Source of the DNA: a virus
Length of the DNA: 25,682 bases
Direction: 5' to 3' (one strand)
IMG/VR virus record: IMGVR_UViG_3300030380_000833
Coordinates: 1 to 25,682 of that record
Shown here: piece by piece, positions 9,352-22,240 of the stretch
Layout: the number at the start of each line of letters is the position of its first letter
Position numbering within the stretch: position 1 is the stretch's first letter
The notes under the pieces: model-generated
The model's database searches: none
What the model was told of the DNA's origin: nothing
What the model saw: only the letters and a program-made list of their open reading frames with translations
Position numbers and translations under genes: made by a program

Positions 9352-10004
9352 TATGCGGGTCTAAAAATAAATTCTTCAGGGTTCTTATATGCGTCTAATG
9401 CAATCTCGTCTGATAAATGACGATCTGCAATAAGGAAGTAATCTTGTGCAGTTGTACCTCCAGTTTCTCCTCTTTCTCTCGCCAACAAAGCTACAGCCGC
9501 ATGTACAATAGGATTAGATGGTATTGCAGTTGTGTCTGTGTCGTTACTCAGTACGCCTTCTCTAGCTATCAAATCAAAGCGTAAAGAGTAAGAAGCGTCT
9601 GGAGTTGGGTACACAGTAACTTGTGTATCTCCTGAACCGTCTACTCCTGAGTAAGTAAAGTAAGCGGGTGCGCCGCTAGTAGATCCAGCGTTATATACTG
9701 CATTGTTTACCCAAGTAGGTGTTTGGTAAGTAATAAAGAAATTAGATGTGTCGTTAATAACACTATATATTTTAACACGTTCTCCTGCATTTGTCAAGCT
9801 ATATTCTGAAGTTCCTGCTGATGCTGAAACAACTACTGTAGTCCTGAGTGCAGACCAATCGTGTGCATTCTCTACCTGTGTCTTTGCGTCATTTACAAAG
9901 TCACCTACCATCTTAGAGTACGCTGTGTTAGCTACTGCCGACACTTCATCTTCACGTAAGCGTCTAAGTACGCTGTTCACTAATGTTAAGTATTGTGTAC
10001 TCAT
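9351..10004 (-). CDS. Tail tubular protein A-like head-tail adaptor (217 aa)
   Basis: The 217-residue protein is of T7 gp11/P22 gp4-like size. It begins with a helical part (LTLVNSVLRRLREDEVSAV, MVGDFVNDAKTQVENAHDW), followed by a beta-rich centre with TVYPTPDASYSLRFDLIARE. It ends in a helical region (HAAVALLARERGETGG) that leads into LDAYKNPEEFIFRP. The NSVLRRLRE..V...., AHDW and VYPTP features are typical of the podovirus adaptor family that forms the ring under the portal. It overlaps the upstream gene by 4 bases and the nozzle gene by 1 base, implying coupled translation. Confidence 0.82.
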   Translation of the reverse strand: MSTQYLTLVNSVLRRLREDEVSAVANTAYSKMVGDFVNDAKTQVENAHDWSALRTTVVVSASAGTSEYSLTNAGERVKIYSVINDTSNFFITYQTPTWVNNAVYNAGSTSGAPAYFTYSGVDGSGDTQVTVYPTPDASYSLRFDLIAREGVLSNDTDTTAIPSNPIVHAAVALLARERGETGGTTAQDYFLIADRHLSDEIALDAYKNPEEFIFRPA

Positions 10005-13274: not shown

Positions 13275-13310
13275 CTTAAAAAGAAAGCTAGGGGCTACCT
13301 AAGCAGCCCC
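13275..13310 (-). terminator. Rho-independent terminator after the major capsid gene
   Basis: On the minus strand GGGGCT pairs with AGCCCC (13305-13310 with 13291-13296) across an 8-base loop, followed by the T-rich tract TAGCTTTCTTTTTAA. It lies 15 bases after the capsid stop and before the holin-like gene. A leaky terminator here would make capsid transcripts more abundant than tail transcripts, as the terminator after gene 10 does in T7. Confidence 0.75.
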
Positions 13311-13325
13311 ATGCTTAACCTACTA

Positions 13326-14294
13326 TTAGCTAGCAGGAACTACCAGAGTCAGACCAGACGCTGGGCGAAGTACAGCTACTCCGTACAAAGTGTCTGAAGT
13401 AAACAAGTTAGAGAGGAACTCTTGCTTGTACTGAGTCTGTGAACGTACACCCATTTGCTCTGCCATGACGATAGCATCACTATGCATCAACAAGCAGCCC
13501 AAAGAGTCTACTGTGCTAGATGAGTTATCGCTAGAGGTTTCAACAGTAGGACAGTTCGTGCTAACGAAAACATCAATACCGTACAGTTGACCAATCTGGC
13601 CGTTTGTAACTTGACCGTTGTTTACGAAGTCAGAGCTAACATAGCGGTCAATACCCATAATGGTGTTGCGGACAACAGGTGGGATAATGAAGCTACGTCC
13701 GTCCATAGGAACGTCAGCATCGTCTAGCTTTTGAATGATACCACGGAATGCTGCATCAGTAAATACGTCAGCAGAAACTACGGTGTCAGCCGTGTAGGTA
13801 GACAGGCCGTTAGAAGCATCTACGAAAAAAGTACCACCGTTGTTTAGGTAGGTCGTAGACGTTGTACCAGAAGCACCCAAGCCAGTAGCCAGAGAGTGCA
13901 GGTCGGTGTCAACTTGCTTAGCCAGTGCATAACCAGCATCTTCAGTGTAGAACTGACGCAAAGAAGACAAGGCTTGTACATCCGTAATATCCTCAATCAA
14001 GCGTGAGTATTCAAAGTGCTTGTTGATGGATACTTGCACTTCGCTTTCCGTAGCGTTCTGCACCGTTACAGCAGTATTCTCTGCTTTAGCGTGTGCATCG
14101 CCACGTACAGGCTTAGGTACATGGATCGTATCACCTTTCTTGCCAGCCATTGACATTTTTTTGACAAGGTTTGCCAAAACAAGGTTTTTCTGGTAAGCGG
14201 CGATAATCTCGTCACTCCAGATTTCCGGGATAAAGGTTGCTGCGCTAGTATTGTCAACAAACCCCCCAGTTGCGGGATATGTAGAATCAGTCAT
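13326..14294 (-). CDS. Major capsid protein (322 aa)
   Basis: The 322-residue coat protein candidate starts MTDSTYPATGGFVDNTSAAT. It has the HK97-fold pattern of an N-terminal arm (FIPEIWSDEIIAAYQKNLVL), an extended-loop-like segment (PKPVRGDAHAKAENTAVTVQ), a spine helix (QFYTEDAGYALAKQVDTDLH, about residues 115-135) and a C-terminal domain with a conserved-looking YGIDVFVSTNCP. It follows the acidic scaffold by about 20 bases and is followed by a terminator. Gene order (portal, scaffold, this gene, adaptor), size and typical coat-like composition (many Thr, Ser, Ala, few Cys) support the call. The N-terminus has no long cleavable prohead delta domain, in line with a separate scaffold gene. 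Confidence 0.88.
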   Translation of the reverse strand: MTDSTYPATGGFVDNTSAATFIPEIWSDEIIAAYQKNLVLANLVKKMSMAGKKGDTIHVPKPVRGDAHAKAENTAVTVQNATESEVQVSINKHFEYSRLIEDITDVQALSSLRQFYTEDAGYALAKQVDTDLHSLATGLGASGTTSTTYLNNGGTFFVDASNGLSTYTADTVVSADVFTDAAFRGIIQKLDDADVPMDGRSFIIPPVVRNTIMGIDRYVSSDFVNNGQVTNGQIGQLYGIDVFVSTNCPTVETSSDNSSSTVDSLGCLLMHSDAIVMAEQMGVRSQTQYKQEFLSNLFTSDTLYGVAVLRPASGLTLVVPAS

Positions 14295-14314: not shown

Positions 14315-15100
14315 CTATTTGACCCTCTTTTCAGCATACGCTCTCATTATTTCATCTTGTAGAGCAGTATACCTATGAGGATCGTCTTTCATAAGTTTAA
14401 TAATGTCTGCGCGTCTATAGATTTTCTTAGGGCTTGATTCAGAGCTACCACTGGCATTGCCTGTACTAGCTGTACGTACTGCTTGCTTACGGCTCTGCTT
14501 TTCAGCATTAGCAGCTTGACCAATCATTTGTTGACGTTCTTTCCAAAGATTGAAAAGTTCATCAGCAGCTTCGTAGTCGTACTGTTTATCCGCTGCTACA
14601 AACAGCTTTGTCCTAATCTTAGATGCTTCAATCCACTCTGCAAATTTAGTATCCTTTAAGATACTTTCCATGTCAGGGTGATTAGTCTTCAGTGCAGATA
14701 ATGCAGTTTGCATTCTGTACTGTTGGCTAACTGATTCAGCTTCCTTAATTTTAGGATGGTTCTGAATAGCCTGTGCTACTGCCTTCTCAGGATCAGTAAA
14801 GAAATCTACTTCTTCGACTTGTTCTTGTTGTTGTTGTTGGGGTTCCGTTGTGAGTTGTGTTTGGATGTAGTTGTCAACAACCTTACGTAGCTCACCTACC
14901 TCAGAACTTTGCCGCCCCAATAGCTTCTCAGCTTCTTGGTGCATCTGTACAAGTTCCTGTGCAGACTTACCTTGGTATTTATCAGGAATCTCAGGTTCAC
15001 TAGGAGTTACCTGTTCTTCCACTTCCGGTTGCTCTTGTTGTTCAGCAAATACGTCTTCAGTAGACGCTTGCTCATCTTCACGCTCAATTATTTTAGCCAT
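14315..15100 (-). CDS. Scaffolding protein (261 aa)
   Basis: The 261-residue protein has a highly acidic, Gln/Glu/Pro-rich N-terminus (residues 1-45), a helical middle and a QQQQQ run at about 90. The C-terminus is basic (SPKKIYRRADIIKLMKDDPH), ending AEKRVK. An acidic helical body with a basic C-terminal tail that binds coat protein is the signature of podovirus scaffolds such as those of P22 and T7. It lies just upstream of the coat gene with a 20-base gap. It probably directs procapsid assembly and then leaves before or during DNA packaging. No protease motif is seen, so no self-cleavage is predicted. Confidence 0.82.
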   Translation of the reverse strand: MAKIIEREDEQASTEDVFAEQQEQPEVEEQVTPSEPEIPDKYQGKSAQELVQMHQEAEKLLGRQSSEVGELRKVVDNYIQTQLTTEPQQQQQEQVEEVDFFTDPEKAVAQAIQNHPKIKEAESVSQQYRMQTALSALKTNHPDMESILKDTKFAEWIEASKIRTKLFVAADKQYDYEAADELFNLWKERQQMIGQAANAEKQSRKQAVRTASTGNASGSSESSPKKIYRRADIIKLMKDDPHRYTALQDEIMRAYAEKRVK

Positions 15101-15150: not shown

Positions 15151-15381
15151 CTACGAACTTTGCTTTTTTTCGTATTGGATGTGACTCTGCCTAGCCTTTG
15201 CCCAACGCTTAGTAGCGTCGGGGAAGTCTCCGCTTATTGGGTCAAGAGAAGACCTGATAGGTGAGATAATCCTCTTAGCACTGTACCCGCACTTTTCGCA
15301 CCTAACTGTGCGTTTATCTTCAGGTACTAGCGCCTCAAATACATGCCCATCTAAACACTTAAAATCATACAGCTTGAACAT
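15151..15381 (-). CDS. FmdB-like zinc-ribbon protein (76 aa)
   Basis: A 76-residue protein starting MFKLYDFKCLDGHVFEALVP, with a C-x3-H pair (C9, H13) and a CEKC pair (C28, C31) followed by GYSAKRIISP. This pattern (Y-F-C..GH-FE ... RCxxCG..A.R.IS) is that of the short FmdB-type zinc ribbons seen in bacteria and many phages, whose function is unknown. The first pair is CxxxH here instead of the usual CxxC-like arrangement. The C-terminal half is basic and unstructured. It overlaps the upstream gene by 17 bases and sits before the scaffold, so it is co-expressed with head genes. It may be a small nucleic-acid- or protein-binding factor. Confidence 0.65.
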   Translation of the reverse strand: MFKLYDFKCLDGHVFEALVPEDKRTVRCEKCGYSAKRIISPIRSSLDPISGDFPDATKRWAKARQSHIQYEKKQSS

Positions 15382-15640
15382 TGTCTTCTAAGTCAAGTTC
15401 TTCCTGTGGTTCTTCCAAAGCGTCTTTTTCAGCATTGTTAATTTGAGTTTCTAAGTTAAACAGAGTAGCAAGTATTGCAAGTTGTCCTTTACGGAAGTGC
15501 AAGTTATCGTTATCTGTTGTTAGTTCAACTGAGTTTATTTGCGCTACGTTTTGACCTAGATCCTTCATTAGTTGTTTCCAACCCTCTGAACGAAACATCT
15601 CAAAGTAATTAGCAAAGTAAACTTCTAGTTCCTTAGTCAT
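15365..15640 (-). CDS. Conserved small phage protein upstream of scaffold (91 aa)
   Basis: A 91-residue protein with a helical N-terminus (ELEVYFANYFEMFRSEGWKQ) containing F-x-S-E-G-W-K. A central NLHFRKGQLAILATLFNLE segment and an acidic tail (EEPQEELDLED) follow. I recall the SEGWK plus FxKGQL pattern from small podovirus proteins in the head module without known function, but could not search. It is the first gene after the internal promoter at 15679-15707 and so heads the scaffold/capsid transcript. The start ATG at 15640 has AAGGG about 10 bases upstream, next to a small hairpin in the leader. No cysteine or membrane segment is present. Confidence 0.7.
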   Translation of the reverse strand: MTKELEVYFANYFEMFRSEGWKQLMKDLGQNVAQINSVELTTDNDNLHFRKGQLAILATLFNLETQINNAEKDALEEPQEELDLEDNVQAV

Positions 15641-15652
15641 CTTATGTATTCC

Positions 15653-15667
15653 CTTAATTTAGTTAAG
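15653..15667 (-). promoter_or_regulatory. Leader hairpin before the 15640 start
   Basis: CTTAA-5-TTAAG inverted repeat in the 5' untranslated leader produced by the 15679-15707 promoter. It lies just upstream of the AAGGG ribosome binding site. It matches in position the CTTAG-3-CTAAG hairpin at 22167-22179. Confidence 0.5.
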
Positions 15668-15678
15668 ATACAGTTTAG

Positions 15679-15707
15679 ATTATATCATACTTTTGACAAA
15701 AAGTCAA
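15679..15707 (-). promoter_or_regulatory. Sigma70-type extended -10 promoter for the scaffold/capsid unit
   Basis: On the minus strand: TTGACT (15707-15702), a 17-base spacer, TATAAT (15684-15679), with TGA directly before the -10 (an extended -10). The A-rich tract just upstream (15708-15735) could act as an UP element and overlaps the end of the 36-residue gene. The start of transcription is expected near 15672. Nearly the same sequence lies at 22191-22219. Confidence 0.85.
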
Positions 15708-15714
15708 GTGTTTT

Positions 15715-15825
15715 TTAATACATTTTTCTACCAGTGGTTTTACGCATTGGCTTCTTTTTCATGGCCTTCTTTTTCTTTGCAGGTCTACCAACTTGTTTTC
15801 CGTAAGTTCCTTTTCCCATTGGCAT
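15715..15825 (-). CDS. Tiny, very basic protein (36 aa)
   Basis: A 36-codon frame from the ATG at 15825 to the TAA at 15715. The protein starts MPMGKGTYGKQVGRPAKKKK and ends KTTGRKMY, with 14 of 36 residues Lys or Arg. An AGAGGAAGA ribosome binding site lies about six bases upstream of the ATG, overlapping the end of the upstream gene, which stops one base before it. I recall the MPMGKGTYG..VGRP opening from very short genes in many podovirus genomes, function unknown. The charge suggests nucleic-acid binding or DNA charge neutralisation in the head. It is the last gene of the portal unit: the next promoter's -35 lies just beyond its stop. Confidence 0.75.
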   Translation of the reverse strand: MPMGKGTYGKQVGRPAKKKKAMKKKPMRKTTGRKMY

Positions 15826-15826
15826 A

Positions 15827-16078
15827 TCAGTCTTCCTCTTTTTTTGGTGGTGGGTCTCTAAGTAACAGTTTAGTACCTACGTCAGCCACAGGCACTACTC
15901 TGGGTTCACAGTACGCATCAAAATGTCTAGTCTTAGGCATAACGATAGCGTGTTGCCCTACGTCCTGATGAACTAAGGCTGTTTTATATTCAAGACAGGA
16001 AGTCAACTCTCTAAATGCTAGCTCCATTGTGGGTACATTTTTTTCAAGAATTACCAGCATAAAAACTAACATAGTCAT
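15827..16078 (-). CDS. Small protein with hydrophobic N-terminus (83 aa)
   Basis: An 83-residue protein beginning MTMLVFMLVILEKNVPTMEL. A short hydrophobic stretch of about 10 residues is followed by an acidic/polar part with cysteines (SCLEYKTAL, AYCEPRVVPV) and a charged Pro/Lys/Glu tail (PPPKKEED). The hydrophobic start is short for a stable span but could be a signal-anchor or a buried strand. The ATG overlaps the upstream stop (ATGA), implying coupled translation. I recall small phage proteins of this plan (hydrophobic start, two to three Cys, YC.P near the end) in podovirus structural operons, function unknown. Confidence 0.6.
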   Translation of the reverse strand: MTMLVFMLVILEKNVPTMELAFRELTSCLEYKTALVHQDVGQHAIVMPKTRHFDAYCEPRVVPVADVGTKLLLRDPPPKKEED

Positions 16079-16308
16079 GCTTTAAGATCTACTGTGTACT
16101 TATCTTGATTAAACACTTTTAAGATAGTGACCATTAGTTGTCCGTTTTTGTACTCATAGTAAAACTGTTCAAGATAAGTTATGGCCTGTACAGCACCCTT
16201 AACTGCGTATGTTTTTTGTTTTATAGAGTAAGAATCTTTAACTCTGTCAGTTACTATAAACTCATGTGCGTTAACACTGTTAGGAAAAGGAGCAGCTACA
16301 GCTTCCAC
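16075..16308 (-). CDS. Small protein of unknown function (77 aa), GTG start
   Basis: A 77-residue protein, mixed alpha/beta by eye: SVNAHEFIVTDRVKDSYSIK, then AVQAITYLEQFYYEYKNGQL and a C-terminal TILKVFNQDKYTVDLKA. The start is taken as the GTG at 16308 because AGAAGG lies five bases upstream and no ATG occurs near the N-terminus. It overlaps the next gene by 4 bases. Many Tyr/Phe and Val suggest a compact soluble domain. No motif identifies a function, and I do not recognise the family. Confidence 0.6.
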   Translation of the reverse strand: MEAVAAPFPNSVNAHEFIVTDRVKDSYSIKQKTYAVKGAVQAITYLEQFYYEYKNGQLMVTILKVFNQDKYTVDLKA

Positions 16309-16372
16309 TATAGCCTTCTTTTCTGTTTAACAGCCTGTGTTTTCACAGCAGTAGGTGCCTGTAGCTCCCACG

Positions 16373-16579
16373 TTAACAGCAGTAGTTTTGTGTCCCATGC
16401 GGTTCCAAGGACTCTTGGCGCTTGGTTCCGCACGTACACTGTCGCTCCGTACCCGCATTTTTTGTGGTTGTATTGCAGCCACATCTTTGCGACTCTGTGC
16501 CGCTTTGCTGGAGGGTTGACGTACTGCAACATTCTGTATTCTCGCATATCACAGAATAAGTTTGGTTGTTCTGGGTCAT
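16373..16579 (-). CDS. Cysteine-rich small protein (68 aa), reading frame uncertain
   Basis: Taken from the ATG at 16579, three bases after the stop of the 99-residue gene, with GAAG six bases upstream. The protein has nine cysteines in 68 residues (12, 17, 18, 33, 35, 48, 50, 67, 68), arranged as CENTEC, RCGC, QCTCG and a final CC, which suggests metal binding. An overlapping frame (16308-16547, 79 residues, starting MREYRMLQYVNPP) is also fully open and ends by overlapping the next GTG start, but it has no ribosome binding site. I prefer the Cys-rich frame but am not certain; both could be remnants of one frameshifted gene. Confidence 0.4.
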   Translation of the reverse strand: MTQNNQTYSVICENTECCSTSTLQQSGTESQRCGCNTTTKNAGTERQCTCGTKRQESLEPHGTQNYCC

Positions 16580-16582
16580 ACT

Positions 16583-16882
16583 CTACTTCGACAGAAGTGC
16601 TTGAACTAGCGCGGCTATCTGTTCGTTTGTCTTTTCCTGAATTTTCTCCTGTCGCTCCAAGCTGGAGACTATGGCCTCCACTTTGGCGCTCGTCACTGCC
16701 TGTGCTTGGCCGTTGGCTTGAGCCTTTTTTGCAGTCTCCTCCGCTATCTGAGCTATGCGCTCACGATCTTCTGCGGCATGTGCAGTATTAGCTTGTAGTA
16801 CACCCCAAGCAACTGCTAGGCTTACAGCGGCAGCAGCAATAGGTAACGCCCATTGTGGTATTTTAATAGAGTTTTCAGACAT
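16583..16882 (-). CDS. Membrane-anchored coiled-coil protein (99 aa)
   Basis: A 99-residue protein with a hydrophobic segment at about residues 11-32 (WALPIAAAAVSLAVAWGVLQ). A long Ala/Glu/Lys/Gln helix follows (EDRERIAQIAEETAKKAQ, then LERQEKIQEKTNEQIAALVQ). The TAHA-AED junction after the hydrophobic part could be a signal-peptide cleavage site, but a signal-anchor is equally likely. This layout (short cytoplasmic start, one span, periplasmic coiled coil) fits an inner-membrane spanin subunit or another lysis accessory. The gene lies among small accessory genes between portal and scaffold. No nested second spanin frame was found. The function remains a guess. Confidence 0.6.
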   Translation of the reverse strand: MSENSIKIPQWALPIAAAAVSLAVAWGVLQANTAHAAEDRERIAQIAEETAKKAQANGQAQAVTSAKVEAIVSSLERQEKIQEKTNEQIAALVQALLSK

Positions 16883-16894
16883 TGGTTTTCCTTA

Positions 16895-17116
16895 TTATAC
16901 TGCCCGTAGCGTAGCGGACTTTTTATTTACTATTTTATTGCTGGCTTCCAAAACAAAAGTAGAATGGTTTTTAATCATACGCAACACCTCCATCTGAATG
17001 TCAAGGTCTTGCGCTTCAATCAAAGAACCTCCAAGGTACGAAATTGTCTCTGCATTTAACCTTAGAGTGCTTATTTCAGGATTTTCAATCACAGGTACAA
17101 GTTCAGCATCTATCAT
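16895..17116 (-). CDS. Small protein of unknown function (73 aa)
   Basis: A 73-residue soluble protein. An N-terminal strand-like part (DAELVPVIENPEISTLRLNA) is followed by helices (ETISYLGGSLIEAQDLDIQM, LRMIKNHSTFVLEASNKIVN). It has no cysteine and no membrane segment. The gene lies 9 bases after the basic 85-residue gene and 12 bases before the membrane-anchored 99-residue gene, in the same orientation. I do not recognise the family. Confidence 0.55.
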   Translation of the reverse strand: MIDAELVPVIENPEISTLRLNAETISYLGGSLIEAQDLDIQMEVLRMIKNHSTFVLEASNKIVNKKSATLRAV

Positions 17117-17125
17117 GGTTAGTCC

Positions 17126-17383
17126 TTATTTTTTTCGTGACTTAGCTCCTACACACTTCCAACGCTTTCTTGATAAATTGTTTGGAGTGTTAGGGTCATT
17201 TTGTTTTTTCTTAGGCAGTCTTTTTTTAATACCTAAACTTCTAGCGCAGTAGCTGTCGCCTTTGCTGGTTCCCGGCTTAACTCTAGGGCCACCGCCTTTT
17301 GCTGGGCCAGCTTGTCCGTAAGATACTCTTTTGCCGCTAGAGGTTACTTTTACCTTCGCTTTTCCTTTCCTTGGTTTTGCCAT
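17126..17383 (-). CDS. Basic cysteine-containing phage protein (85 aa)
   Basis: The start is taken as the ATG at 17383, which overlaps the upstream stop by one base, instead of the TTG one codon earlier. The protein is extremely basic. Landmarks are RVKPGTSKGDSYCARSLGIK (about residues 34-53) and, near the end, LSRKRWKCVGAKSRKK. I recall the pair YCARS ... LSRxxWKCxGxKS from a family of short phage proteins of unknown function. Two cysteines at conserved-looking places hint at metal binding or a disulfide. It belongs to the series of tiny Lys/Arg-rich proteins scattered through this late operon. Confidence 0.7.
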   Translation of the reverse strand: MAKPRKGKAKVKVTSSGKRVSYGQAGPAKGGGPRVKPGTSKGDSYCARSLGIKKRLPKKKQNDPNTPNNLSRKRWKCVGAKSRKK

Positions 17384-17535
17384 CAAGCAGCCTCTTGTTG
17401 TTTAGTCTTGCGCGTCTGCGCTGGCCTTTTCGCTTCATTCTTAGATTCTAGTTCCTTAATCTTGTTTTCAAGTTCTTCAAACTTGGCGTTGATTTGGTCT
17501 AATGCGCTTTGAAACTGTACTGAAGTTACTACCAT
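17383..17535 (-). CDS. Short coiled-coil protein (50 aa)
   Basis: A 50-codon frame starting at the ATG at 17535, two bases after the portal stop, and ending in a TGA that overlaps the next ATG by one base. The first part is a clear heptad helix (FQSALDQINAKFEELENKIK); the tail is basic (RPAQTRKTKQQEAA). The tight spacing on both sides supports a real gene. Its position directly after the portal suggests a portal- or head-associated oligomer, but that is only inference. I do not recognise the family. Confidence 0.65.
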   Translation of the reverse strand: MVVTSVQFQSALDQINAKFEELENKIKELESKNEAKRPAQTRKTKQQEAA

Positions 17536-17536
17536 G

Positions 17537-19537
17537 TTACTGTCCTTGTCCTACTGGGGGTTTGTTTTGCTGTACGAGTTTGAGATCAATCTCCTTCTCT
17601 TTCAGCATAGTTTGTGCCATCTTCAGCCTACGTTCAAATTCTTTGTCATCCTCAGAACCCGCCTGTAAGTTGGTTGTGATAGCTTTGATCCTATCAATCT
17701 CTAGCTCCTGTGGTGCCAACTGAGTTTCTACAGCCATCTTCTGCGCTCTGGCTTGTGACTCAGTGGCTTGTCCATTCAACGCTGCTGTCTGTGACTGCTG
17801 GAACTGTAATTGTGCCTGTTGTGCAGCCTGTGCCAACTGTTGTTGCTCTGGAGTAGGTTGTGATTGCTGTGCTGCTTCCTGTAGTCTAGCAGTAAGGTCT
17901 TCACGGTTTGATAGGTTCATGTTGTCAATGATGGACTCTATTAACGTGTTGTACAGAGGTGAGTCCTGTGACATTGTTTGCAGAAGCTGGACAAGCTGAG
18001 TTACTTCGTACTCACGCGCTATAATGCCCAGTGTAGACGTAGCGTCAAACTTGTAGTCAGCTACAGGATAGTTCTCAGGATCAAACTGCATGTAACGGTA
18101 GGCAGCTTTCTTTACAAACGGTATGAGGAAACAGTCTTGGAAGTTTATTAGTGTGCGTTTGTGACGCTTAATAATAGCACCAAGAGACATGCTAATTCCA
18201 GCAGCGGTAGCTTCTCCATTGATACTTCCCGGAATGCCAGCAGAGTCAATCGCCCCTGTAGACATCTGTACCATTCTTTGTAACGCATTTGCTTGCTCAA
18301 AAGTTATTTGGCTTACTTGACCAAAGTTAAAGGGTTGTAGGACTTGCCTTGGGTCACCGTTAGTTAAAACAATCTTGCCGGGACGTACCTCTGGCCTAGA
18401 CCCTCTAGGAAGCCGTGTAGCGTCCATAGCAAGCATTGGATGTACAGTAAGGGATAACGCATCAATACGTGCGCGTAGCTCTGTATCAAGCGCCTTTTGG
18501 CTATTATAGCCTTTCTCACAAACACCTCTACCCCAGAACCTTCCCGGCACAACATCCCAAGGGAATGCTACGATAGGTCGGTCACTCATCATGTAGGGGC
18601 TTTCTTCAGCCTTCAGGAGTATGCCACCGTTGGCAATGACAATGATTGCTTCCACGTAGAAACTTTCAGTTGTTTCGTCATCGTCCTCTACAAGTGTCTC
18701 TATCTCAGATATGTCCTCATCGTCAGCCATCATAAGTTCTTTTTCAGACTTAGTAAGCAGGTGTCGAGGTACTTTACCGTAGTATTTTGTTAAGCGTACT
18801 TTATCGTCATCAAAGCTGGATAGCTCTTGGTCAGGCTCTAGTTCGTAGTCTCTTGGAGCGTTACCAACGTACACATCAGCGTACACTCCAGACTCCTGTA
18901 GTTCCTCCACAAGATGTCGTGACACAAACTCATCTACAGCAACTCCAAGCGCATTGTCTACGTTTGTAGCTACAGGGTCAATGAGAAAGTTTTGAGGAAG
19001 GATGGGTCGCAGTTTGACCATTGTGCGGTCAGTCACATTAACACCCACTGCTGTCAACTCACCACCCATGATAGGCTGGGTGGCGGGAGCCATCTCTTTA
19101 ACTTCCTCAAGCACTACCTCACCAATCCCCGTACCAAAAACGGCTGAGTTGATGAGGCACTCTCCTACTGCCTGACGTAGCTTTGATTTCTCTAGGTCAG
19201 CGTGGAGTTTGGTTCGCAGGTACACAATGTCCTGAGATTCTTGATCGTCCATATCGTCAGTAATACTAAAGTATTTACCGCGACCAAACGTAGCTTCTTC
19301 AATCTCCGCTACACTGGACTCTACAGCTTGCTGCAATGCAGGGCTGATTATTCTACTTCTTTCACTCTTTCTGTCTGAGTCTTGTGCTGCCCAGATACCT
19401 CTCCAGAGCCTATAGTATTCTTCGTTACGCTCTGCGTAGTTTGATTCATAGTGGTCACGCCAAGTATTACACTTGTCCATGACCCAATCTTCAACGTGCT
19501 GCTCAGTGGCAAGGGTGTCGTTGTCACCGTATTCCAT
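17537..19537 (-). CDS. Portal protein, P22-like (666 aa)
   Basis: The 666-residue portal forms the dodecameric ring through which DNA enters and leaves the head. The N-terminal part has HYESNYAERNEEYYRLWRGIW (about 29-49) and SRIISPALQQAVESSVAEIE (61-80), the arrangement found in long P22-type portals. The middle has LRPILPQNFLIDP and a WDVVPGRFWGRGVCEKGYNSQKALD core; SMSLGAIIKRHKRTLINFQD precedes the stem/wing region. The Gln/Ala-rich C-terminal 100 residues (QQLAQAAQQAQLQFQQSQTA) are helical, like the barrel of P22 gp1. Length and position after terminase fit. The start has AAGGT six bases upstream, in the end of the preceding gene. Confidence 0.93.
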   Translation of the reverse strand: MEYGDNDTLATEQHVEDWVMDKCNTWRDHYESNYAERNEEYYRLWRGIWAAQDSDRKSERSRIISPALQQAVESSVAEIEEATFGRGKYFSITDDMDDQESQDIVYLRTKLHADLEKSKLRQAVGECLINSAVFGTGIGEVVLEEVKEMAPATQPIMGGELTAVGVNVTDRTMVKLRPILPQNFLIDPVATNVDNALGVAVDEFVSRHLVEELQESGVYADVYVGNAPRDYELEPDQELSSFDDDKVRLTKYYGKVPRHLLTKSEKELMMADDEDISEIETLVEDDDETTESFYVEAIIVIANGGILLKAEESPYMMSDRPIVAFPWDVVPGRFWGRGVCEKGYNSQKALDTELRARIDALSLTVHPMLAMDATRLPRGSRPEVRPGKIVLTNGDPRQVLQPFNFGQVSQITFEQANALQRMVQMSTGAIDSAGIPGSINGEATAAGISMSLGAIIKRHKRTLINFQDCFLIPFVKKAAYRYMQFDPENYPVADYKFDATSTLGIIAREYEVTQLVQLLQTMSQDSPLYNTLIESIIDNMNLSNREDLTARLQEAAQQSQPTPEQQQLAQAAQQAQLQFQQSQTAALNGQATESQARAQKMAVETQLAPQELEIDRIKAITTNLQAGSEDDKEFERRLKMAQTMLKEKEIDLKLVQQNKPPVGQGQ

Positions 19538-19539
19538 AG

Positions 19540-19794
19540 TTATACCTTACGTGATCGTCTTGTTTTTTTGGCTATCTTTTTAGGTTGTTTACTGTGCTGT
19601 TTCCCTGCCGCTGTGTCTTTTCTTTTCTTACGGGTTGTTGCAGCGTACTCTTTAGATGACAACGACTTTATAGCTTTCTCAGGTAAGTAACGCTCTCCTG
19701 TGGCTTTTGGGCCTTGAGTGCTGGGCTTTCCTGACTTTGTACGCCACTTTTGACTTCCCCACTTTTTTAGTGACCGCTGTGGTTTTTTAAGCAT
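19540..19794 (-). CDS. Basic short phage protein with TGERYLPEKAI motif (84 aa)
   Basis: An 84-residue, strongly basic protein. Landmarks are LKKWGSQKWRTKSGKPS (residues 9-25), TGERYLPEKAIKSLSSKEYA (about 32-51) and a basic tail with KQPKKIAKKTRRSR. I recall this motif order (KxWxxQKWRTKSGKPS, GERYLPxxAI, YAATTRxKR, KQPKKIAKKT) from short proteins in marine phage genomes and some bacterial contigs, function unknown. It lies two bases upstream of the portal start and supplies the portal's ribosome binding site in its last codons. The charge points to nucleic-acid binding, possibly related to packaging. Confidence 0.78.
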   Translation of the reverse strand: MLKKPQRSLKKWGSQKWRTKSGKPSTQGPKATGERYLPEKAIKSLSSKEYAATTRKKRKDTAAGKQHSKQPKKIAKKTRRSRKV

Positions 19795-19795
19795 T

Positions 19796-19969
19796 TTAGT
19801 TTTTGCCTTTTGCTTTCTTCTGTGCGGTCTTACTTAAATCCTTAAAGTGAAATAGGCGTTGGCTTGTTTTACCATGAGACTTGCCTGTGTGCAAAGTTCC
19901 GTTAGGCATTTTGTGTGTATTGCCTTCCCATTTTTTACCTGCTTTTGTGTAGTGCGGTACGCCTTTCAT
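19796..19969 (-). CDS. Small basic His-rich phage protein (57 aa)
   Basis: A 57-codon frame from the ATG at 19969 (ATGA overlap with the upstream stop) to the TAA at 19796. The protein begins MKGVPHYTKAGKKWEGNTHK, then MPNGTLHTGKSHGKTSQRLF and HFKDLS, ending with a Lys-rich tail. The HKMPNGxLHTGKxH and LFHFKDL pieces match what I recall from a short, widely shared phage protein in terminase/portal regions. Several His and a GxLHTG turn suggest a small beta fold, and the charge suggests nucleic-acid contact. No function is known to me. Confidence 0.75.
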   Translation of the reverse strand: MKGVPHYTKAGKKWEGNTHKMPNGTLHTGKSHGKTSQRLFHFKDLSKTAQKKAKGKN

Positions 19970-20145
19970 CTATATCCTCCACCTTTAGCTTTGTACTCTT
20001 TAGCAAGCATTTGGGCTTTACGCGCCGACCACTGTCCCGGCTTACCGCCTTTGCCCCCTGCTTTAATCCTGTTAAATAAATTCTTACGCATAGTGGGCTT
20101 TGTATAGTTCCCAGCTTCATTTACTCTTGATTTTTTTGCAGCCAT
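19966..20145 (-). CDS. Small basic phage protein (59 aa)
   Basis: A 59-codon frame whose ATG at 20145 overlaps the large terminase stop by one base (TAATG) and whose TGA overlaps the next ATG. The protein starts MAAKKSRVNEAGNYTKPTMR, then LFNRIKAGGKGGKPGQWSAR, ending MLAKEYKAKGGGYR. I recall this as a very common short protein of marine and other podoviruses (KAGGKGGxPGQWSARKAQxLAxxYK), function unknown. The strict coupling to terminase hints at a packaging-related role. A GGAGGAT site near its 3' end serves the following gene. Confidence 0.8.
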   Translation of the reverse strand: MAAKKSRVNEAGNYTKPTMRKNLFNRIKAGGKGGKPGQWSARKAQMLAKEYKAKGGGYR

Positions 20146-21398
20146 TAGTACCCCGTTACTGTGTCCAAAACTTCATGGTCATCTATTTCAAAGTCGTATG
20201 TGTACGCTATCTTAGCCAACTGGTCTATGTAAGCTAATGCGTCCACAAGGTCATCATGTGTCAGTGGGTCAGGAAATTGAAATAACTGGTCTAAGAACCG
20301 ACTGTTCCACTCCCCTTTGTCAAGGGTTACGAAACCATTTTCAAACCTGCCCTGTAGCGCCCACATGACCCTATCAGTCTTCTTTTTGTTTCCGTGGGTT
20401 AACTCATCAACCCTAAAAAACATCCCGTATCGCTTCATCATGTCCGTTAGAGGGGACATAACAGCCTGTCTAGCAATACCTTTCTCTATGCCTATCCCTA
20501 CTGGCTTGTAGTCCCTGACAACCTCAAATATCTTTCTGGCTGTCTCAGACAACTCCCAGCGCCCATGAACTATGTTTTCAACATGCCAGTGTCCACTGTC
20601 GTTAACCTTGACAACCGCTATGGCTGTCTCGTCCAATTTACTGTTCTTAGTACGTTGCTTGTTTACTTCCTCAAAACCAGCTAGGTCAATGGCTATGTAG
20701 TAGTCACCGTACTCAGGGGATTCACCAAACTTGACCCAATCCTCCTTGAACATCTCAGAGCCTCTGGCCTCAAAGGAAGCCATAAACTCTTGTCTAAACG
20801 CATAGCTGGACATACTCTTTTTAGCTACGTTTATCTCATCCTCGTCCAACAGAGGATTGTCATAGCTTGTAAAGTGCCATGCTTTGTACGTTGGGTCATC
20901 ATCTAACTCAGCGTACTGATACAACTCATAAAAGTGATTACGTCCCATAGGCGTACCTATGAACAACGCATTCCCCTTTTGGTCAGCCAATGCTGGCCTA
21001 AGAATCTGCTCAAATACTTCAGGCTTCATGTCTGCGTATTCGTCCATGACCAGAAACTTCAAGGACACACCACGCATAGTCTCTGGCCTGTCCGCACCCT
21101 TCAACGATATTGTAGCACCGTTGATTAGTTTTATCTGTAGGTTGTTAATGTGACTGGACACAATCACTGGATTCCCCAATTCAAGCAGTGTCTGCCACAT
21201 GATGTCCCTAGCCTGTCCCTGTGTAGGTGCAACGTAAAACACATTACCCTTACTGGACTCCAAGGCGTTGACAATCAACAACCATGCTGCTAGTCTGGAC
21301 TTACCAGTACGCCTACCAGCGGCTACAATCTTAAACCTTGTATCGTCACTCCAGACCTGTTGTTGCCAAGGGAGTAACTCAATGTTAAGATCAGTCAC
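20145..21398 (-). CDS. terL: Terminase large subunit (417 aa)
   Basis: The 417-residue packaging ATPase and nuclease. The ATPase half has a Walker A motif GRRTGKS (28-34), Walker B FLVMDE (115-120) and motif III GTP (148-150). The nuclease half has the acidic residues of an RNase H-like fold: D238 in IAIDLAG, E305 in GIGIEKG and the HDDLVDALAY cluster (D382-D386). The start is a GTG directly after the preceding TAG (TAGGTGACT), with no ATG nearby, so translation probably depends on coupling to the M15 peptidase gene. It cuts and pumps phage DNA into the procapsid through the portal, with the small subunit encoded two genes upstream. Confidence 0.95.
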   Translation of the reverse strand: MTDLNIELLPWQQQVWSDDTRFKIVAAGRRTGKSRLAAWLLIVNALESSKGNVFYVAPTQGQARDIMWQTLLELGNPVIVSSHINNLQIKLINGATISLKGADRPETMRGVSLKFLVMDEYADMKPEVFEQILRPALADQKGNALFIGTPMGRNHFYELYQYAELDDDPTYKAWHFTSYDNPLLDEDEINVAKKSMSSYAFRQEFMASFEARGSEMFKEDWVKFGESPEYGDYYIAIDLAGFEEVNKQRTKNSKLDETAIAVVKVNDSGHWHVENIVHGRWELSETARKIFEVVRDYKPVGIGIEKGIARQAVMSPLTDMMKRYGMFFRVDELTHGNKKKTDRVMWALQGRFENGFVTLDKGEWNSRFLDQLFQFPDPLTHDDLVDALAYIDQLAKIAYTYDFEIDDHEVLDTVTGY

Positions 21399-21749
21399 CT
21401 AGTAACACCACACCACAGCATCCGTATCTCTAGTATCCACATGGATAAACCCATTAGCCACACCTATCCCCCTAAAGCCCATAATCATTGCAGCTTTAAT
21501 TATCTTATGGCGCTGTTGGCCCCCTGACACCTTAATGTCAGCAGCTATACCTTCAGAGTGTTTCCCCGGCTTAGCCTTCTTTGCCTCTATAGAGTGCTTA
21601 GGTGACCTATATCCGCTAGTGATTACAAAGGGAAAACCACAGGCTTCCCTCAACTCATCTAGCTTAGCAACGAACTCTGGCTTTATCTGATTCTCACCTG
21701 TTTCTTGACAATCAAAATCTTCTATCTTGAAGTATTTGTAGTTAGCCAC
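21399..21749 (-). CDS. M15-family peptidase, likely endolysin (116 aa, GTG start)
   Basis: The GTG at 21749 gives the usual family N-terminus (MANYKYFKIEDFDC) and overlaps the upstream stop by 8 bases. The frame is open further upstream, but a longer product would lie inside the other gene and add only basic, non-family residues. The zinc site is H64 and D71 in KHSEGIAADIKV plus H103 in GFIHVDTR, preceded by ITSGYRSPKHS; this is the M15 D,D-peptidase pattern. The length fits the short, single-domain M15A class, which cuts peptide cross-links in peptidoglycan. No signal peptide is present, so a holin is needed for export. Its place between the two terminase genes is unusual. Confidence 0.85.
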   Translation of the reverse strand: MANYKYFKIEDFDCQETGENQIKPEFVAKLDELREACGFPFVITSGYRSPKHSIEAKKAKPGKHSEGIAADIKVSGGQQRHKIIKAAMIMGFRGIGVANGFIHVDTRDTDAVVWCY

Positions 21750-22155
21750 TTTCTTCCGTAAACTCCCCTTCAATGGTGTTTTCTTCTTGTTCGGTTGTTG
21801 CTTCTTCTTCACTCGTACCAGAGACACTTGTGGCGACTTGCCCAACACCTGAGATAGTAATTGACACAGACTGTCTCCCACCTGTAGAATCCTTTTCAAA
21901 GTAACTTAAAGGCAACATCCTATCCATTACTAGTTTCCATGCTGCCGCTTGATTTTTATGGTCATCGTTAAGAGCAGCATTAAAAATACTATCCAGAACC
22001 TTGTTAGATTTAGGGGAAGCAAGCATTCTAGCCTTATATTCGTTAATAATGCTAGCGTCACCTTTAGGTCGACCTACTTTACCCCTGTTTCCTGTAGTTT
22101 TAGAGACTACATCAGTCTTCCTTGGTCTTCCTCTTTTACGTTTAGGTTGATCCAT
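21742..22155 (-). CDS. Putative terminase small subunit with AT-hook-like motifs (137 aa)
   Basis: A 137-residue protein, first gene of the leftward unit. It begins MDQPKRKRGRPRKTD, containing the canonical AT-hook core KRGRPRK (residues 7-13). A second related element, KVGRPKG, lies at 26-32. The helical middle (LDSIFNAALNDDHKNQAAAW, then VMDRMLPLSYFEKD) resembles the small-terminase pattern of a DNA-binding start followed by oligomerising helices, and the tail is acidic (SEEEATTEQEENTIEGEF). Its position just before terL supports this. DNA recognition by AT-hooks instead of a helix-turn-helix would be atypical. The alternative is a general minor-groove DNA-binding regulator. Confidence 0.6.
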   Translation of the reverse strand: MDQPKRKRGRPRKTDVVSKTTGNRGKVGRPKGDASIINEYKARMLASPKSNKVLDSIFNAALNDDHKNQAAAWKLVMDRMLPLSYFEKDSTGGRQSVSITISGVGQVATSVSGTSEEEATTEQEENTIEGEFTEESG

Positions 22156-22166
22156 AAAGTATTTAC

Positions 22167-22179
22167 CTTAGTACCTAAG
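22167..22179 (-). promoter_or_regulatory. Leader hairpin before the 22155 start
   Basis: Perfect inverted repeat CTTAG-3-CTAAG in the 5' leader of the leftward transcript, a few bases after the predicted start of transcription and directly before AAGGT. It is equivalent to the hairpin at 15653-15667. Confidence 0.5.
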
Positions 22180-22190
22180 AATACTATCTG

Positions 22191-22240
22191 ATTATATCAT
22201 ATTTTGTGTCAAAAGTCAAGGATTATTTTAGATTATTTAG
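22191..22240 (-). promoter_or_regulatory. Leftward sigma70-type promoter with extended -10 and AT-rich upstream element
   Basis: On the minus strand: TTGACT (22219-22214), a 17-base spacer, TATAAT (22196-22191) preceded by TGA (extended -10). Directly upstream is an AT-rich 10-base direct repeat (GATTATTTTA/GATTATTTAG on plus, 22221-22240) that could be an UP element. Transcription is expected to start near 22184, about 30 bases before the putative small terminase gene. It should drive the whole terminase/portal unit. Confidence 0.85.

Follow-up and report, generated by a model that had tools for sequence, protein, structure and literature searches.

Two near-consensus extended -10 promoters with leader hairpins in the late region of an uncultured marine phage

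A near-consensus host promoter before late genes raises the question of how the delay of those genes arises, and two such promoters stand in the late region examined here. The window, a stretch of 25,682 nucleotides (positions 1 to 25,682 of IMG/VR record IMGVR_UViG_3300030380_000833), is part of a 35,540-base virus record of an uncultured marine bacterial virus. Its early genes lie on one strand and its late genes on the opposite one; the early strand encodes primase/helicase, DNA polymerase A, a Cas4-like exonuclease, an endonuclease and ribonucleotide reductase. An earlier note on the window described two minus-strand promoters of the form TTGACT-17-TGATATAAT, and both were confirmed by direct reading and exact search:

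22191..22219, minus strand: promoter A, TTGACT-17-TATAAT with extended -10 TG; predicted to open the packaging unit and kept upstream of terminase in relatives
15679..15707, minus strand: promoter B, TTGACT-17-TATAAT with extended -10 TG; predicted to open the scaffold/capsid unit and kept in relatives

Read directly, promoter A runs 22219 TTGACTTTTGACACAAAATATGATATAAT 22191 and promoter B runs 15707 TTGACTTTTTGTCAAAAGTATGATATAAT 15679. They have ATGATATAATC in common, the spacer is 17 bases in each, and each scores 11/12 plus TG as a host sigma-70-type extended -10 promoter. An exact search of the 35,540-base record for TTGACT-N14-TGATATAAT returned A and B and no other site. In close relatives, the -35 and spacer of promoter B often form a dyad (TTGACTTTTTGTCAA, TTGACATTTTGTCAA), which is absent in others.

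A search of related genomes for the cassette at the same two gene boundaries had been proposed in the earlier note, and the promoters proved to be kept at both. Relatives' loci were retrieved via the capsid, the terminase and the 91-aa protein, and the top-scoring extended -10 promoter within the interval where one was expected was counted if it reached at least 11 of 13. On the capsid side, 160 of 174 loci had such a promoter, at a distance of 1.35-1.5 kb before the capsid gene; on the terminase side, 54 of 80 had one. The loci are not independent, since several overlap or are closely related; counted by distinct sequence contexts, the figures were 116/130 and 49/75, respectively. A score of 12/13 was reached by 0/1740 capsid-side and 0/800 terminase-side shuffles (0/2540 overall). 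The hexamers and TG were 93-96% conserved as against a mean of 66% for the spacer, the former value being inflated by the selection of sites scoring at least 11/13. Because the promoters are conserved at both boundaries, a chance origin of the pair is excluded, and the proposal of two late units sharing one type of promoter receives strong support.

Of 13 full-length or near-full-length records, the window's own included, 11 carry the late promoters, invariably on the late strand; the early strand of those 11 gave no promoter hits, and the sole additional hit was a single coding match seen in some window-clade genomes. The remaining two of the 13 near-complete records are without the promoters. 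L079 and L090 (G011 and G012), near-complete genomes that capsid and terminase mark as relatives, have neither promoter. On the minus strand at 9769-9797, inside a 217-aa tail gene, lies a third promoter-like site (TTGACA-17-TAAAAT with TG), which is present in most window-clade genomes. It was put down to coding constraint, which explains it well enough, because 53% of the relatives in which the residue is retained also retain the TTG codon of the -35, compared with a mean of 58% over the gene.

No PF00940 polymerase was found in 15 virus records of the group, including the window record (G000), by a search that detected the HTVC011P polymerase as positive control. The phage single-subunit RNA polymerase that defines T7-type late transcription (Autographiviridae) was not detected in the group records. 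Host sigma-70-type late transcription is hence the natural reading, and such transcription from the two late promoters would be the simplest account of the sequence. The window genome is probably that of a marine podovirus-like phage whose group appears to lack a T7-type RNA polymerase. Five MAG bins are scattered over Bacteroidota, Alphaproteobacteria and Verrucomicrobiota and are uninformative as to the host.

The two promoters precede two blocks of late genes, the second of which is followed by an intrinsic terminator:

21742..22155, minus strand: first gene of unit A, 137 aa, with a basic MDQPKRKRGRPRK start and without PHROG match
20145..21398, minus strand: terminase large subunit (PHROG 2, E 7e-45)
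17537..19537, minus strand: portal protein (PHROG 1216, E 2e-46)
15365..15640, minus strand: first gene of unit B, 91 aa, conserved in relatives, with no assigned function
14315..15100, minus strand: head scaffolding protein (PHROG 19777, E 6e-6)
13326..14294, minus strand: major capsid protein (PHROG 267, E 4e-53)
13291..13310, minus strand: intrinsic terminator GGGGCTGCTTAGGTAGCCCC TAGCTTTCTT, directly 3' of the capsid gene; the same kind in relatives

Unit A extends from 22155 down to about 15715 and contains the 137-aa basic protein, an endolysin/peptidase-like protein of 166 aa, terminase, portal and small genes, and unit B extends from 15640 down to 13326 and contains 91-aa and 76-aa proteins, scaffold and major capsid protein; tail protein genes come after unit B. 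A G+C-rich stem with a T-rich tail was found right behind the capsid gene in 100 of 116 distinct relatives, compared with 2.8% of shuffles; the stems differ in sequence among relatives, and the window terminator's own T-tract is poor. The downstream unit probably ends right after the major capsid gene, and because a conserved terminator follows that gene, unit B is taken to be devoted to scaffold and capsid and not mainly to the tail. The earlier assignment of terminase and portal to A and of scaffold, capsid and tail to B agrees with the gene contents of the units, except that the tail probably does not belong to the core of B, given the terminator at 13310-13291. No strong terminator was found between units A and B. 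A very basic 36-aa open reading frame (MPMGKGTYGKQVGRPAKKKKAMKKKPMRKTTGRKMY; 15715-15825, minus strand) stops 7 bases short of the promoter B -35, and its product could be a nucleic-acid-binding or virion protein.

Behind each promoter, the leader can fold into a hairpin:

22159..22184, minus strand: leader hairpin A, GUAUUCUUAG-GUA-CUAAGG-UAA-AUAC; supported by folds, GTAT-type in the window clade at both boundaries
15645..15672, minus strand: leader hairpin B, UGUAUCUUAA-CUAAA-UUAAG-GGA-AUACA; supported by the fold and by relatives

The inverted repeats CTTAG..CTAAG (A) and CTTAA..TTAAG (B) each start 11 bases past the -10, as expected from the description of a hairpin at equal distance behind both promoters. 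The hairpins had been described as small; the stems are longer, extend outward and begin at the predicted +1, which by the position of the -10 falls at about 22184 (A) and 15672 (B), the first hairpin bases. In both leaders the fold is a stem of two parts, interrupted on its 3' side by a 3-base bulge. The ribosome binding sites AAGGT and AAGGG do not follow the hairpins, where they had been placed, but lie within the 3' arm and bulge: the Shine-Dalgarno (SD) sequence AAGG of A (22169-22166) is inside the 3' arm, with the AUG at 22155, and AAGGG of B (15655-15651) is in the 3' arm and bulge, with the AUG at 15640.

Because MAFFT misplaces the outer stem in short leaders, pair counting was dropped in favor of a structure-based search without fixed stem sequence. 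A hairpin with the SD in its 3' arm was found at 47 of 123 starts behind promoters (38%) and at 69 of 3698 other starts (1.9%), a 20-fold enrichment that counts related sequences. In the window clade, a GTAT...ATAC leader form occurs at both boundaries (32 distinct sequences) and is the same in both leaders of every genome where both were seen; these hairpins have a bulge of 2-4 bases on the 3' side and a variable loop. In the 65-70% relatives, the capsid side has an ACTGTCC...GGAGAAACAGT leader, different in sequence but of the same topology and before a homologous gene, usually with a separate hairpin at the start site. Capsid-side hairpins at +1, unrelated to one another, were present in 10 of 21 sequence clusters versus 3.3 +/- 1.5 in shuffles, with 0/100 shuffles above 8; the terminase side was not enriched for +1 hairpins (2/9 clusters versus 1.6 in shuffles), and the leaders on that side are unstructured in one clade. 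Rfam covariance models gave no match in the window to E 0.1.

Leader energies were computed by nearest-neighbour models at 37 and 20 °C. Folding energies were low, and shuffle z-scores were small. In the SD opening-energy table, from which the window's own A leader is absent, values mostly lay between the 14th and 75th percentile of other genes, which is ordinary for these genomes, and at 20 °C the cost was mostly about 2-3 kcal/mol; three close terminase-side leaders reached the 89th-90th percentile (6.4 kcal/mol). Since SD opening is ordinary and the z-scores are small, the hairpin is not a strong off-switch, and strong SD sequestration, be it as an off-switch or an RNA thermometer, was rejected.

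Taken together, the account that we consider quite probable, with host use, start sites, read-through and hairpin function inferred from the sequence, is one in which host RNA polymerase acts at A and B, the capsid unit is terminated, and a 5' hairpin is protective or tuning. Host sigma-70-type RNA polymerase would read the late genes from two near-consensus extended -10 promoters: promoter A would open the packaging unit, from terminase to portal, and promoter B would serve as a booster within the late region, opening the scaffold/capsid unit. With read-through from A added to initiation at B, scaffold and capsid would be the genes with the highest transcript dose, and tail gene expression would require transcription to run past the terminator. 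The first base of each hairpin is the predicted start of its transcript; the hairpin would close around the SD and end a few bases before the start codon. A weakly paired leader at the 5' terminus would most likely guard that end against decay and set initiation efficiency, and ribosomes would be able to open it; we favor this combination of 5'-end protection and tuned initiation. A 5' hairpin stabilizes mRNA and impedes RppH (PMC3997798). The shielding of transcript 5' ends suggested earlier is plausible as far as stems beginning at the predicted +1 and enriched capsid-side hairpins go, and less so on the terminase side, where no enrichment was found and one clade is unstructured; as a decay shield, the hairpin would have a modest effect.

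The leader hairpin might instead be a translational operator, at which a phage or host RNA-binding protein holds the bulged SD hairpin and represses or coordinates both units until late. A weak hairpin over the SD resembles a possible protein operator; both window-clade leaders share one form, in which the 3' side bulges by 2-4 bases and the loop varies, and the GTAT/ATAC and ACTGT/ACAGT families reach one topology by different sequences before the same capsid-side gene. No candidate RNA-binding protein was identified, however, and because the terminase-side leader is different or unstructured outside the window clade, a common operator would be clade-specific at best. It is unlikely, in our estimate, that the hairpin acts as such an operator, or that a widespread marine phage group lacking a T7-type polymerase times and balances its late genes via host promoters and a shared protein-bound SD hairpin. 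T4 RegA repression (PMC3014915) embodies the same idea, a single repressor that controls several initiation regions; the target sites of RegA lack structure and are rich in A+U around the AUG (PMC3014915), and no RegA-like gene was identified in this genome.

It is equally doubtful that the promoters alone are functional and the hairpins a by-product of A+T-rich leaders with a short start-to-SD space: the low folding energies and z-scores and the clades without hairpins would fit, but the 20-fold enrichment of a specific form at these starts, many of the sequences being related, and the positional enrichment at +1 on the capsid side argue against it. The dyad behind each promoter could also be read as a DNA operator, through which a repressor would stop host polymerase at about +1 to +26 during early infection. 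It is located right at the predicted start, promoters this strong would be active immediately if unchecked, and the A and B spacers of the window clade are alike (identity 0.69 versus 0.59 expected; 40/5000 permutations); outside that clade, A-B promoter similarity within a genome was not above permutation. Yet loop lengths range from 3 to about 10 bases across hairpins and one arm is longer by 2-4 bases, so that the half-sites lack the fixed spacing that a dimeric repressor needs, and in L136-type leaders the element lies about 18 bases further downstream, with a different hairpin at +1. A DNA operator was rejected as highly improbable, the loop length and asymmetry being too variable. An initial place to search for the cause of the late-gene delay is the leader hairpin common to both units.

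In phage T7, the gene 9-10 unit has the phi9/phi10 promoters, a structured gene 10 leader and the T-phi terminator straight after the capsid gene. The window likewise has an additional promoter ahead of the scaffold and capsid genes, a leader predicted to be structured, and a terminator behind the capsid gene; T7 differs in its own single-subunit polymerase, whereas the window promoters are of host sigma-70 type and the SD lies within the hairpin. Having a promoter and a terminator to itself, the capsid unit resembles that of T7 but is built from host-type parts, and the window offers a testable late-transcription map for a large group of uncultured marine phages without detectable T7-type polymerase. 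The Saffermanviridae cyanophage Pf-WMP3 (NC_009551, from Phormidium) similarly divides replication and late genes between the two strands, the late ones in the order terminase, portal, scaffold, capsid, tail that is seen in the window group, and it has neither an annotated RNA polymerase nor a PF00940 match; its capsid is 33% identical over 76%. Unlike the window group, Pf-WMP3 showed no near-consensus extended -10 promoter in the same scan, and its scaffold gene follows portal with almost no gap. Stabilizing 5' stem-loops of the ompA and papA type (PMC3997798) stand at the very 5' end of the mRNA, as is predicted for the window stem, which is weaker and includes the SD.

The L118, L125, L127 and L149 terminase-side leaders are long (about 80-140 bases) and structured and share a TTCGTATAGATCCC block, and GATCCCCT-like and AGGGGACTCATG-like stretches in them pair over the SD; these leaders possibly form a separate leader RNA family.
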